A stretch of 64,000 nucleotides of DNA from Gammaproteobacteria bacterium (GTDB taxonomy: Bacteria > Pseudomonadota > Gammaproteobacteria > Steroidobacterales > Steroidobacteraceae). Positions 1 through 22,100 of the stretch are shown in pieces (the first letter of the stretch is position 1; the number at the start of each line of letters is the position of its first letter). The position numbers and the translations under genes were made by a program. The notes beneath the pieces were generated by a model, which saw only the letters and a list, made by a program, of their open reading frames with translations, was not told where the DNA came from and did not search any database. The DNA lies in assembly GCA_027459765.1 (NCBI GenBank), contig DAIDHD010000006.1, positions 1 through 64,000 of the forward strand, given 5' to 3'.

Positions 1-132
1 CGTCTGAATCCGCGACAAGAACGGCAACGCTTCACGCTTCAGCCCGGCGATGAGTTCTGGTATTAGATTGGGAACATCTGTATTCCAACTATCAGAACCG
101 CCAGAACCGTCGCGAAGACGCCAGCCGACATT
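1..132 (-). CDS. Possible partial coding fragment entering from the left edge (reads NVGWRLRDGSGGSDSWNTDVPNLIPELIAGLKREALPFLSRIQT)
   Basis: Stop-free protein-like frame on the minus strand from about 132 to 1, running off the window; it abuts the tandem array and its start is not identifiable. Confidence 0.35.
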
Positions 133-362
133 GTGTGTCGATTGTGTGTCGATTGTGTGTCGATTGTGGGTTGAATGTGTGTCGATTGTGTGTTGATTGT
201 GTGTCGATTGTTGGTTGATTGTTTGTCGATTGTGTGTCAATTGTGTTTCGCTTCCCTGTCGATTGCGTGTCAGCTGTCTATCGATTGTGTATCGATTTTG
301 TGTCGATTGTGTGTCGATTGTGTGTCGATTGTGGGTCGACTGAGTTTGTGGATTATGTGTCG
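130..362. repeat. 11-bp tandem repeat array, consensus ATTGTGTGTCG, about 21 units, degenerate in the centre and right end
   Basis: Read directly: units at 130-140, 141-151, 152-162, 163-173 and so on to 338 keep an exact 11-bp period with substitutions only; the last units before 362 are degenerate. Confidence 0.95.
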
Positions 363-364
363 AT

Positions 365-1777
365 ATGCCGACTGTGTTCCTGTTCGACCGGCTGCGGGCG
401 GGCTTCGCGCTGCCGGAAGTGCAGGAGCCGGCGATCGATCAACAACTCGCCTGGTTCCAGCACAACCCGGAATACCTCGACCGGGTCTTCCAGCGCGCCC
501 AGCGCTACCTCTATCACGTGGTGTGCGAGGTCGAGGCACGCGGCATGCCGACCGAGTTCGCGCTCCTCCCCGTGGTGGAGAGCGCCTACGAGCCGTTCGC
601 CTACTCCGTGAGCCGTGCGGCCGGCCTGTGGCAGTTCATCCCGGGGACCGGGGTGCGCTTCGGCCTCAAGCAGGACTGGTGGTACGACGGCCGCCGTGAC
701 GTGATCGAATCCACCCGCGCGGCGCTCGACTACCTGCAGGCGCTGCACGACCAGTTCGACGGCGACTGGCTGCTCGCCATCGCCGCCTACAACGTCGGCG
801 AGGCCAACGTGCAGCGCCAGGCCGACTTCAACCGCGCTCACGGCCGGCCGGTGGATTTCTGGCACCTGACGCTGCCCGCCGAGACCCGTGCCTACGTGCC
901 GAAGCTGCTCGCCATGAAGCGCCTGATGGCCGAGCCCGAGCGCTATGGCCTCAACTTCGCGCCGATCCCCAACCAGCCCTACTTCGCCGTGGTCGACGTG
1001 GGCTCGCAGATCGACCTGAAGGTGGCGGCGCAGCTCGCCAACACCCCCTACGATGAACTGGTGGCCCTCAATCCGGGCTTCAACCGCTGGGCCACCGACC
1101 CGACCGGCCCGAACCGGCTCCTGGTACCGATCGACGCGGCGGACGCGATCGAGGCGGGACTGAAGAATCTCACGCCGGATGAACGGGTGCCGTACGTCAC
1201 GGTGGAGGTCCGCCGGCGCGAGACGCTCGCGAGCGTCGCACGGCGTACCGGGGTGCCGGCGCCGGTGATCGCGCGCTTGAACGATCTGCACGGCTCGCGC
1301 CTCGCGGCGGGCACGGTGCTCAAATTGCCGCAGACTCAAGGGGAACTGCCCGCCAAGGTGCTCACCGCCGCGGCCCGGGTGGACAAGCCGCAGGCCGACG
1401 CGGGCACGCGCGCGCAGCGCCCCATCGTCTATCGCGTGCGCGCCGGCGAGACGCTCTATAGCATTGCCCGCCGCCACGGCACCACGGTGAGCGCGCTCGC
1501 CAAGCTCAACAACCTGGACGCCACCGACACCCTGTCGCAGGGCCAGCGCCTGGTGATCCGCCGCGCGGGCGTGCGCAGCTACCGCGACGAGCGCGTCGGC
1601 GGCGGGCGGCGCGTGCTCTACACCGTGCGCGCCGGCGACACGGTGTACAGCATCTCGCACAAGTTCCAGGTCACGGAGGCGCAACTGAAGACCTGGAACG
1701 GCCTCAACCGCCGCCACCAGATCCGCATCGGCCAGCGGCTCGTGATGTACGTGGAAGCGAACCGCGAGCAGGGCTGA
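365..1777 (+). CDS. mltD: Membrane-bound lytic murein transglycosylase D-like (SLT domain plus LysM repeats), apparently 5'-truncated
   Basis: [41 protein letters not shown] lytic transglycosylase motif; three LysM-like repeats ([48 protein letters not shown]); no signal peptide, in-frame TGA at 341. Confidence 0.85.
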
Positions 1778-1832
1778 CCGGCGGCGCCGACCGCGGCGCC
1801 GCGCATTCAACGACAACACCTTGAGGACCAGC

Positions 1833-2630
1833 ATGGGATTCTTGAAGGGCAAGCGGGCCTTGATCGTCGGATTGGCCACCGACCGCTCCATCGCCTACGG
1901 CATCGCCGAGGCCATGCACCGTGAAGGCGCGGAACTCGCCTTCTCCTACATCGAGCGCATGGCCGACCGGGTGGTGCCGCTCGCCAGAGAGTTCGGATCG
2001 GAGATCACCTTTCCGATGGACGTGGGCTCGGACGAGGACATCGAGCGCGGCTTCGCGACCCTCAAAGGGCATTGGCCGGCGTTCGACATCCTGGTGCACG
2101 CGGTGGCGTTCGCGCCGCGCGAGGCGCTCGCCGGGCGCTTCGTCGACGTCACCACCCGTGAGGGCTTTCGCGTCGCGCACGACATCTCGAGCTACAGCCT
2201 GACCGCGCTCGCGCGCGCCGCCCGCCCCTTCATGCAGGGCCGCGCCGGCGCCATCGTCACCTTGAGCTATCTCGGCGCGATGCGCTCGCTGCCGAGCTAC
2301 AACGTCATGGGCCTCGCCAAGGCGAGCCTGGAGGCCAACGTGCGCTTCCTCGCCGCCGATTTGGGGCCCGAGGGCATCCGGGTCAACGGCGTCTCCGCCG
2401 GGCCCATCAAGACCCTGTCGGCGGCGGGCATCTCGGGACTGCGCCGCATGCTGCAGCACGTCGCCGCGGTCTCCCCGATCCGCCGCAACGTCACCATCGA
2501 GGACGTGGGCAACACCTGTGCATTCCTCTGCTCCGACCTCGCTGCGGGCATTACGGGGGAGATCACCTACGTCGACGGGGGCTACAATTCGGTGGGCATG
2601 GCCTTCCCGGAGGAGCCTGAGGGCGCCTGA
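1833..2630 (+). CDS. fabI: Enoyl-[acyl-carrier-protein] reductase (NADH)
   Basis: [52 protein letters not shown] active site; [43 protein letters not shown]. Confidence 0.95.
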
Positions 2631-2804
2631 GCGCCTTGCGCAGCGCGGGCAGCCGGAACCGGCAGGCAGGGTCTGCCGTCCAACTGGCGGGCGTGCCACG
2701 GCGACGGCTCAGCGCGTCTGTCCTCCGGCGTTGGGGAGCGTGCGTTGTTGCGTGTAGGGGCGGTCCCGCAGGGCCGCCTGAACGTTCGAAACGAGGCAAG
2801 GAAT

Positions 2805-3407
2805 ATGTCAAATCGAGGGCTTGTTCGATTGATCGCCACCGCCGGGCTGACGAGCGCGCTCGCCGCCTGCGCCAATCTTCCCGTCACCGTCGACGTGAAC
2901 CCCAACCTCTCCGCCAGCATGTGCCACAACTACGCCTTCGCGCCCACGCACGTGCCGAGCGGCGGCCAAGGCGCGTTCGGCAACCCGATCAACGCCGAGC
3001 GGCTGCGCGTCGCGGTGGAGAATCACCTCGCCGCCCGCGGGCTCGCCAAGGTGGACCTGAAGGACGCCGACTGCGTGGTGGGCTACGCCATGGGCTCTCG
3101 CCAGGTCATGGACCAGTACTACGGCGGCTTGGGCGCCATGTGGGGCTTCGGCTGGGGCTGGTACGGCGGCTACGGCTACTGGGGCGGGCCGTGGGGCTAC
3201 GACGGCACCTACGTCTACGACGAGACCCGCATCACCGTGGATCTTTTCGAGGCCAAGACCCACAAGCCGATCTGGCACGCCTATGTGACCGAGAGCGTGT
3301 CGGACTTGAAGGGCCCGCGTGCCGACGAGCACATCAACGTCGGCGTGGACGCGATCTTCGGCAAGTTCCCGATCCCGGCGCCGGCCGCGGCGGCGCCGGC
3401 GCATTAG
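2805..3407 (+). CDS. DUF4136-like lipoprotein
   Basis: Lipoprotein-like signal (LIATAGLTSALAACANLP); DUF4136-like pattern YAFAPTHVP...AVENHLAARGLAKVDLKDADCVVGYAMG and Gly/Tyr/Trp-rich middle. Confidence 0.75.
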   Translation: MSNRGLVRLIATAGLTSALAACANLPVTVDVNPNLSASMCHNYAFAPTHVPSGGQGAFGNPINAERLRVAVENHLAARGLAKVDLKDADCVVGYAMGSRQVMDQYYGGLGAMWGFGWGWYGGYGYWGGPWGYDGTYVYDETRITVDLFEAKTHKPIWHAYVTESVSDLKGPRADEHINVGVDAIFGKFPIPAPAAAAPAH

Positions 3408-5771: not shown

Positions 5772-7670
5772 CTACTCGATCGCCTGGGGATTGAGCACGA
5801 CCTTGGCGTCGTCACGGGCCGCCGCCGCGTAGGTCTGCGCCTCGAGCGCCGCCTCGCGTGCCGCGAACTGGCGCTTCAGGGCGATCGCCTCCGTGGCCGC
5901 GTCACTGGACGGATCGACACGCGCGCCGCTCACGTCGAGCACCGCCGCGTCGCCGTCCTTCAAGGCCACCTCGGCGAACACCGGCGCCTTGTCGGGCTTC
6001 GGCCCCGCGAAGGCGCGCTCGCGAATCTCCTGCGGCACGCTCGCATCGCTGCGCCCGATGTACTTGGGCGCGTTCGCGGTGACGCCGAGGCCCTTGGCCA
6101 CGGCCTCCAGCGACTCGCCCGCCTTGAGCTTGTCGATGGCCGCCTGGGCGGCCGCCGTGGCAAGTTCCACGCCGCGTGCCTTCTGCCAGGCCGCGAGCAC
6201 CGCGTCGTGCACCTCGGCGAGCGGCTTCTGCTGCGGCACCTGGTGGTTGGTCGCGCGCAGCACCACGCCGCGGCCCTGGTCCATCTCGACGATGGGGCTC
6301 AAGTGACCGTCGAGCACGTCCTGGCTGAAGGCGGCCTCGATGACCTTGGGATTGGCGCCGAGGGCGCCGCCGCCGCTCGCGCGGCTGAAGCCGGTCACGC
6401 TCTGCACCGTCAGGCCCGCCTTCTTGGCCACCGCCGCGAGGTCGGTGCCGTTCTGCAGCGCCGCGTCGGCGAGCTGATCCTGGGCGGCATTGAAGAGCCG
6501 CTCCGCCTCGCTGCGACGGTATTCCGATTCCAGATCGGCCTTGGCCTGTTCGAACGTCTTGGTGCTCGCCGGCTGGATACCCTCGAGCTTCAGGACGTGA
6601 TAGCCGAACTGGGTCTTCACGGGGCCGCGGATCTCGCCCTCCTTCATGGAGAACGCGGCGTCGGCGAACGGCGCCACGAAGGCCTTACGCTCCGACCAGC
6701 CGAGATCGCCGCCCTGCGGGGCGGAACCCGGATCCTGAGAGAGCTCCTTGGCGAGCTTGGCGAAGTCCTCGCCCGCTTGCGCGCGCTTCAGCGCCACCTC
6801 TGCCTTGGCCTTGGCGGCGGCGTCGTCCTTCGGGTCGTTGACGGCGATGAGGATGTGCCGCACCCGCCGCTGCTCCGCTTGCGTGAAGCGCTCCGGCGTC
6901 TTCTGCTTCTGTTCCTCGAAATAGGCCTTGAGCTGATCGTCGGTGACTTGGACCTTGGCGGCGAGGTCGGCGAGCGAGAGCTCGACGTACTGCAGGTCGA
7001 CCGTCTCCGGGGTCATGTAGTCGGACTTGTGCGCCTCGTAATAGGCCTTCACCGCGGCCTCGTCCGGCGTCACGCTCTTGGCGTAGGCGGCCGCGGAGAG
7101 CGTGAAGTAGCCCACCTCGCGCTGTTCGCGGGTGAGGGCCCGCACGCGCGCCACTTCCGAGGGCGTCGCGAAGCTGGAGGCCGACAGATCGCTCGCCAGC
7201 TGGCGCGCCTTCAAGTCACGCCGGAACAGCGTCTCGATCTCCGCCACCGAACGGCCCTGCGCGCGCAGCACCGCCACCGCGTGCGCGAGGTCGAACTTGC
7301 CGTCCACCTGGAACGCCGGGATGCGCGCCATCTCCGCGAGCAGCGCCGCGTCGCTGACGCGATAACCCAGATCGTCGGTGCGGGTCACGAGCGCGGCGTT
7401 GTCTACGTATTCGTCGAGCACGCGCTTCTTGATCTCGTTGCGGCGCGCCTCGTCGAGGGCGCCGTTCGCCTGGCGCTCGGCCTGGGCGAGTTCGCTCTGG
7501 TAGGCCTGGCGCACGTCGTTGGCGCCGATCTCCAGGCCGTTGACCTTGGCCGCGTAGGTCGGAGCACCCAGCGTCCAGTTGATTCCCCAGAGCACGAACA
7601 CGAGCGCGATTGCGCCCAAAACGACATAGGCCACCCAGCCGGTGAGCTTGTCGTGAATGGTCTGCAGCAC
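5772..7670 (-). CDS. ppiD: Peptidylprolyl isomerase PpiD-like (SurA N-terminal plus PpiC/parvulin domain)
   Basis: N-terminal TM anchor [30 protein letters not shown]; parvulin domain [13 protein letters not shown]...[26 protein letters not shown]...[17 protein letters not shown]. Confidence 0.93.
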
Positions 7671-7774
7671 CTTTGAAGCCCTCTTTCGCGACCGACCCGC
7701 ACCGTCCGCACGCGCTCATCGCGCGGCGCGGCCTTCTGTCCAAGGCCGCGCGGGACGCTCACTTTTAAAGGAAA

Positions 7775-7851
7775 TGGCGGAGTGGACGGGACTCGAACCC
7801 GCGACCCCCGGCGTGACAGGCCGGTATTCTAACCAGCTGAACTACCACTCC
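7775..7851 (-). tRNA. tRNA-Asp(GTC)
   Basis: Reverse complement GGAGTGGTAGTTCAGCTGGTTAGAATACCGGCCTGTCACGCCGGGGGTCGCGGGTTCGAGTCCCGTCCACTCCGCCA; encoded CCA. Confidence 0.97.
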
Positions 7852-7857
7852 GCGTGC

Positions 7858-7933
7858 TGGTGGGTGCTGAGGGGATCGAACCCCCGACCCTCGCCGTGTA
7901 AAAGCGATGCTCTACCAGCTGAGCTAAGCACCC
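7858..7933 (-). tRNA. tRNA-Val(TAC)
   Basis: Reverse complement GGGTGCTTAGCTCAGCTGGTAGAGCATCGCTTTTACACGGCGAGGGTCGGGGGTTCGATCCCCTCAGCACCCACCA. Confidence 0.97.
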
Positions 7934-19195: not shown

Positions 19196-22100
19196 TTAGA
19201 ACTCCGCCCAGTCCGCGTCGGCGCCGTTCGCCACCTTGGCCGGTGCGGCGGCACGCGGCTCCTTGCCGCCGGCCTTGTTCCACGGCCGACTCGGCGCGCG
19301 ACGGTCCGAGCGGGCCGGAGCGCTCGCCGCGGCCGGCGGAGCCTTCGCCGGCGGCTTGGCTTCCTGGCTGGCCTGCATCGCGGCCACCGCGGCCTCGGCG
19401 GCCGCCTTGGAGATGCGGTAGCGCGCCATCATGGTGCTGAGCGCGGTCGCCTGCCCGGCCACCGACTGGCTGGCGGCCGACGCCTCTTCGACGAGCCCCG
19501 CATTCTGCTGCGTCATCTCGTCAAGCTGCATCACCGCCTTGTTGACCTGCTCGATCCCCGAAGACTGTTCCTGGCTGGCCGCGGCGATCTCGCCGATGAT
19601 GTCGCTCACCTTCTTGACGGCGGCGACGATCTGCTCGAGCGTCTCGCCCGACTGAGTCACGAGCTGTGAACCCTCATCGACCTTCTTGACGCTGTCCTGG
19701 ATCAACCGCTTGATCTCCTTGGCGGCCGTTGCGCTGCGGCCGGCGAGGTTGCGTACCTCGCTCGCCACCACCGCGAAGCCCCGGCCCTGCTCGCCGGCGC
19801 GCGCCGCCTCGACGGCCGCGTTGAGCGCGAGGAGGTTGGTCTGGAAGGCGATCTCGTCGATGACGCTGATGATGTCGACGATCTTGCGCGACGACTCGTT
19901 GATTTCGGTCATCGCGCGCATCGCCTGCGACACCACCACGCCGCCCTGGTCGGCCTGATCGCGGGCCGCGGTCGCGAGCTGGCTCGCCTTGCTCGAGTTG
20001 TCCGCGTTCTGCTTGACGGTGGAGGTCATCTCCTCCATCGACGAGGCGGTCTCCTCGAGGCTCGACGCCTGCTCCTCGGTGCGCTGGCTCAAGTCGGTGT
20101 TGCCCTGCGAGATCTCCTCGGCGCCGCGCGAGACCTCCTGGGCCGCGGCCTGCACCCAGCCGACGATCTGCGTCATGTTGTCGGCCATCTTGTTGATGCC
20201 CGCGGCGAGCATCTGGAAGAAGCCGGTCTTGCCCTCGAGCGGGATGCGCTCCTCGAAATTGCCGTCGGCGACCGCAGTGACGATCCGCTCCACCTCGCGT
20301 TCCACGGCGAGTTCGACCGTCCGGTCGTTCCACTCCACCACCGTGCCGAGACGCTTGCCGCTCGGATCCAGCATGGGGTTGGCGATGATGCGCAGCGTCC
20401 GTCCGCCCACCACGAACTGGCCGGTGTGGGTCTTGCTGAGCGACGCGAGCATGCTGCGCTGGTGCGACGGGTTCTTGTGGAACACGTCGATGCTCGCACC
20501 GATGAGCCGCGAGGCGTCGAAGTTCGGCAGATCCTTGCGCAGGTCGGACTGCGCGTTGGTCATCATGTCGTGCATCGAGCGGTTGGTGTAGATGATGTTG
20601 AGGTCGTTGTCGGCCACCATCACGTTGGAGGTGAGGTTCTCGAGTGCGCCCTTGAAGGCGGCGTTCATCTCGGCCTCCAGGCGCTGCTGCGTGACGTCGG
20701 TGGCGTACTTGACCACCTTGAAGGGCCGGCCGTTCATGTCCAGGATCGGGTTGTAGCTCGCCTGGATCCAGACTTCCCTGCCACCCTTGCCGATGCGCTT
20801 GTACTGGCCGGCGTCGTATTCGCCGCGGTTGAGCTTCTCCCAGAAGGCGCGGTACTCGCCGGTGTCGCGATGCGCCGGATCAACGAACATGCGGTGGTGC
20901 TGGCCGCGGATCTCCTCGAGGGTGTAGCCCAGCGTCTTGAGGAAGTTCTCGTTGGCGGTGATGACGGTGCCGTCGAGCTTGAATTCGATCACCGCCTGCG
21001 CCTTGCTCACCGCGGCGAGCTGGCCCTCGAAGTCGGCCGCGCGCAGCTTCTGCTCGGTGATTTCGGTGGCGTACTTGACGACCTTGAACGGCTTGCCGTT
21101 CATGTCCATGATTGGATTGTAGCTCGCCTGGATCCAGACTTCCTTGCCACCCTTGCCGATGCGCTTGTACTGCCGCGCGTCGTACTCGCCGCGGGCGAGC
21201 TTCTCCCAGAACGCCCGATAGTCGGCGCTGTCGCGATACGCCGGCTCCACGAACATGCTGTGGTGCTTGCCGCGGATCTCCTCGAGGGTGTAGCCCAGTG
21301 TCTTGAGGAAATTTTCGTTGGCGGTGATGACGGTGCCGTCGAGTTTGAACTCGATCACCGCCTGCGCCTTGCTCACCGCCGCGAGCTGGCCCTCGAAGTC
21401 GGCCGCACGCAATTTCTGATCAGTGATATCCGTGGCGAACTTGGTGACCTTGAAGGGCTTGCCGGTGGAGTCGAGGATCGGGTTGTAGTTCGCCTGCAGC
21501 CACACCTCGCGGCCGTCGCGCGCGATGCGCCGATACTGGCCGGACTGGTGCTCGCCGCGACGCAGCTTGTCCCAGAAATCGCGGTACTCGGGCGAATTGC
21601 GTTCGGCGGCGTCGACGAACACGCTGTGGTGCTTGCCGACGATCTCCTCCGCCGTGTAACCCATGAGCTTGAGGAAGTTCTCGTTGGCGCGCAGCACGTT
21701 GCCGTTCATGTCGAAGTGGATCGCGGCGCGCGAGCGGTTGACGCCGGCGAGCTGACCTTCCGCGTCGATGGTGCGAAGCTTGGATTCGGTGATATCGATG
21801 GCGCAGTTGAGCACCTTATGCGGCACGCCCTTGGCGTCGAGCACCGGAGTGTAGGTGGCACGCATCCAGATTTCCCGCCCGTCCTTGGAGACGTACTTGT
21901 GGTGCGCGCAGTCGGTCTCGCCGCGGCCGAGTTTGTCCCAGAAGGCGCGGTACTCGGGCGTGTCGCGGCGTTCCGGCGCGACCAGCATGCGGTGGTGCTG
22001 GCCGCGAATCTCCTCGAGCGTGTAGCCGAGGACCTTGAGAAAGATCGGGTTCGCATCGACGATCGTGCCGGAGAGCTCCAGCTCGATCATCGCCTGCGAG

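Follow-up and report, generated by a model that had tools for sequence, protein, structure and literature searches.

The Locus

The subject here is a tandem repeat that is found at the very start of a bacterial contig, along with what lies to either side of that repeat. By 'window' I mean the whole stretch of DNA that was analysed, i.e., 64,000 nucleotides, the first base of which is also the first base of contig C19 (137,714 bp). That contig is from a 3.34-Mb draft genome consisting of 83 contigs and which is 95% complete. From left to right, the features are as follows:

1 to 129, no strand: end piece of C19 to the left of the array, 55% GC, without known relative (contig start; single occurrence in the genome)
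130 to 364, plus strand: 11-bp tandem array, consensus ATTGTGTGTCG, about 21 copies, 43% GC (TRF, unit table, shuffles)
365 to 379, plus strand: degenerate bases resembling the array and reaching right up to the mltD break (in an alignment of 11 relatives, similarity from 380)
380 to 1777, plus strand: MltD-type lytic transglycosylase (SLT and LysM domains) without its 5' part (Pfam; relatives extend upstream)
1833 to 2630, plus strand: FabI-type enoyl-ACP reductase (a short-chain dehydrogenase), the native downstream neighbour (Pfam; beside mltD in relatives)

Beyond the array and toward the contig end, that is, there are only 129 bp. In the other direction the FabI-type gene is found in its expected place downstream of mltD.

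The Tandem Array

As reported by TRF, the array spans 130-364 (period 11, 21.2 copies, 77% matches, 1% indels, score 263), and 19 consecutive units (130-338) are in register, i.e., without indels, each with 0 to 4 mismatches to the consensus. A preliminary description of this DNA, made from its letters, had claimed an 11-bp array of about 20 units lacking indels until the right end, and to that extent was correct. Six units are perfect, with three of these at the left edge of the array, one mid-array, and two near the right. The edges themselves are unlike: the left ends abruptly in perfect units, whereas the right is decayed, consisting of a 2-base register slip after 339 and then decay of units. 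Identity of the array with itself at a lag of 11 is 0.76 versus 0.46 as the highest value seen in 2000 shuffles at any lag from 5 to 44. Consisting of head-to-tail units within the range of about 10 to 60 bp, and doing so beyond chance, the array has the form of a minisatellite.

Units at 163, 185, and 207 have in common a GTTG ending, which gives rise to a local 22-bp periodicity of variants, a spacing that hints at duplicated two-unit blocks. Given that periodicity and the varied units, the satellite-like expansion that had been suggested early on fits the array. The longest exact repeat inside of the array is 38 bp and, because the units also vary, the array is unlikely to be a loop made by the assembler but instead is real DNA from the sample. 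Its GC content, 43% versus 69% for the window, is below that of every other sampled 235-bp stretch of the window, bearing out the earlier claim of low GC. As a single strand the array is predicted to fold at -15.4 versus -8.4 kcal/mol in shuffles (z -3.3), via short stems of 4-6 bp, and this better-than-shuffled folding is taken here to follow from the periodicity of the unit. There is no Rfam match to a structured RNA within 1-3000.

The consensus had been described as free of stop codons in all six frames, with the suggestion that the repeat therefore could be tolerated within a gene without ending translation. The claim holds for the 33-nt consensus cycle but not for the actual array, for which five of six frames have stops (1, 2, and 1 in the plus-strand frames; 2, 0, and 2 in the minus-strand frames). 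Furthermore, since 11 is not divisible by 3, the three frames of either strand run through one and the same 33-nt cycle. A stop-free consensus therefore amounts to only two tests, one per strand, and a shuffled unit succeeds in both 36% of the time. The stop-free argument, that is, carries no weight. Nor does tolerance within a gene describe this locus, with mltD broken at the array and with a TGA, at 341-343, in the mltD frame.

No further period-11 arrays are reported by TRF in the 64 kb. Repeats of other types are seen in the window, however. At 20697-21689 a unit of 366 bp is imperfectly repeated in tandem (2.7 copies, 83% matches) and, as read by eye, its minus strand appears to encode a signalling protein in which PAS-like sensor domains recur. 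At 7657-7900, near where a SurA/PpiD-type isomerase gene ends (minus strand, 5772-7670), the ORF text suggests a tRNA-like cluster or instead repeated boilerplate sequence.

Distribution of the Repeat

Searching with two units and allowing up to 3 mismatches, there is no second array in this genome, none in 60 relatives, and none in 399 genomes of the phylum other than its own. The lone match in a relative (genome G021, locus L009) is a single one with 3 mismatches, at a locus without tandem repeat, and is attributed to chance. Three exact units are absent from the scanned GTDB species genomes, the window's own left out. Absence elsewhere in the genome and in relatives is what the preliminary description had itself named as counting against its claim, and finding this absence weakens the array as a feature of the organism.

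A period near one helical turn raises a different issue, that of proteins bound along a single face of the helix at every turn, as with plasmid iterons or ParR-type centromeres, in this case on an integrated or misjoined plasmid or phage. The parC of R1 has 11-bp repeats. The RepB protein of pMV158 binds to direct repeats of 11 bp (PMC9943647). Most unit positions in the array vary freely, however, no replication or partition gene is visible beside it, and among 72,556 plasmids and 50,697 phages there is nothing similar to the array in terms of DNA, only short, weak matches. As to an iteron-type neighbour gene, the 129-bp left side is short and has no family match, while to the right are mltD and fabI. 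I hold this protein-binding explanation to be very improbable, and have found no support for the protein-binding or DNA-bending function that had been proposed. More improbable still is a more specific version, in which an undescribed low-GC plasmid or phage has integrated into mltD and the array is its binding or centromere array, phased to the helix.

A Broken mltD and Its Missing Neighbourhood

The open reading frame running from an ATG at 365 through to 1777 has homology to intact MltD-type relatives from residue 6 only, and in alignment with 11 relatives DNA similarity sets in sharply at 380. The relatives examined extend upstream of this point, first as linker and then, where flank permits, as lipoprotein signal, with GAYTAYGACGAY the sequence by which relatives continue at the 380 break. 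What is missing from this mltD consequently is its signal peptide, lipobox, and linker. As homology starts at 380 and the prior 15 bases look like decayed array, the array abuts a break inside of mltD.

It might be argued instead that the array expanded natively, upstream of an mltD that has been shortened, and that it modulates the expression of that gene, as the array is directly 5' of the remaining ORF and its ATG. That ORF is without export signal, however, so its expression would not yield an exported enzyme. The array also is in none of the relatives, and the native upstream genes are missing. This explanation thus strikes me as very unlikely.

Among relatives of the same genus there are 17 loci for which the flank is long enough, and at all 17 gloB is directly upstream of mltD, in the order gloB-mltD-fabI. 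Upstream of gloB is a methyltransferase (3 of 3 loci), along with rnhA and dnaQ at one of those loci, and then farther upstream, past rnhA and dnaQ, are an epimerase and pgi (3 of 3 loci). On no contig of the present assembly was a match found for gloB, the mltD N-terminus, the methyltransferase next to gloB, rnhA, or the syntenic dnaQ, though rnhA, dnaQ, and epimerase were searched for as one concatenated query without positive control, making the absence of rnhA less certain than that of gloB. Such matches to the missing neighbour genes as are listed are distant or due to chance.

Joint loss of dnaQ and rnhA is not credible for such a cell, and therefore there is an assembly gap of several kb just outside of the contig end. 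Deletion between gloB and mltD, as sole cause, is unlikely given that rnhA and the syntenic dnaQ are absent too, which points toward such a gap. The contig, in short, runs into an assembly gap, and what is found at bases 1 to 379 is something other than the native neighbourhood. What one looks for with a misjoin, i.e., synteny lost at a sharp breakpoint near a contig end, is also what is found here, with the breakpoint at 380, the contig start at 1, and gloB lost.

The 129-bp Left Flank

The left flank, at 55% GC versus 69%, has on its minus strand an open frame with a GC3 of 0.53 versus 0.92 in neighbouring genes. It occurs once in the genome and has no credible homologue in any collection reached. 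There are weak matches to phage DnaB helicases, to an RND-transporter locus, and to a subunit of glycine dehydrogenase, but each stands alone and the genes involved are unrelated. A vaguely similar W...LP motif had suggested that the flank might be the end of a DUF4304 protein. There is no Pfam (PF14137) match, however, nor meaningful BLAST alignment to DUF4304 loci, and a small profile built from two DUF4304 loci also fails to support that relation.

Taken as one piece, the first 379 bp are 48% GC, which is under all of the 39 other contig starts that were compared (mean 68%, with none below 60%), and at none of those starts is there a comparable array. Short, GC-rich tandem repeats of 18 bp and 12 bp are seen at L065:3-43 (start of C20) and L094:527-580 (start of C34), but these are of a coding-repeat type, unlike the low-GC array of C19. 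The array had been placed initially where a GC-rich core region begins. The compositional contrast in that statement stands, but the contig start at base 1 and the gene break to the right were overlooked.

Origin of the End Piece

Probably, then, this is an ordinary minisatellite on an end piece of about 379 bp that is foreign to its position and was most likely misjoined to mltD at 380. A short unit would have been multiplied by replication slippage or unequal recombination, as its form suggests, and then aged by substitutions. The low-GC piece carrying it, which by composition seems to be of foreign origin and not to belong to this chromosomal position, would have become attached to mltD most likely by way of a chimeric read or assembly join. 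That join would sit where a metagenomic-style contig terminates, the native gloB-mltD start having remained within the assembly gap, and at this locus the array presumably would be without function. An assembly junction had been among the options raised initially, and it fits the position, i.e., a contig end, a truncated mltD, and a missing neighbourhood. That assemblies have problems with tandem repeats at the edges of contigs is known (PMC6868369).

Certain observations count against a misjoin. As exact repeats inside of the array are no longer than 38 bp, an assembler using longer k-mers could cross it. No long shared word, such as might explain a graph error, is visible at the join, so that either a chimeric read or a true insertion is needed. 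The left flank, moreover, could be the start of a real insertion. The latter would be the in vivo insertion into mltD of a low-GC, horizontally acquired or mobile segment bearing the minisatellite, cutting off the gene's signal peptide and lipobox, with the assembly then broken beyond the segment. Consistent with this are the sharp break at 380, the foreign composition of 1-364, and the real variation between array units. Within the remaining 129 bp, however, one sees neither a transposase or integrase nor an inverted repeat or target duplication, and it is a gap rather than an insertion that explains the missing housekeeping block. A true insertion I consider to be unlikely, with a wrong join the more likely by about a factor of two. 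Membership of the array in this chromosome is doubtful.

Were the junction true in vivo, then a foreign minisatellite would have disrupted the gene of a lytic transglycosylase, which is of local interest only. The main lesson is a cautionary one: with draft genomes, any repeat array or truncated gene found at a contig end should be checked against synteny prior to a biological reading.

Comparison with Known Systems

With plasmid iterons and ParR centromere repeats, e.g., those of pMV158, the array shares an 11-bp period, direct orientation, and low GC, but it is without visible replication or partition gene and no sequence relation was found. There is similarity to bacterial minisatellites, or VNTRs, as seen in the head-to-tail units of fixed length that differ by substitutions, the signs of two-unit duplication, and the compositional contrast. 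The array differs from these in being absent from relatives and in having a chromosomal location that is not secure. In comparison with repeat-associated or chimeric contig ends (PMC6868369), what is unlike is that the array was assembled through, with 129 bp more beyond it. What is alike, by contrast, is the repeat at the edge, the broken gene, the loss of synteny, and the missing neighbours.
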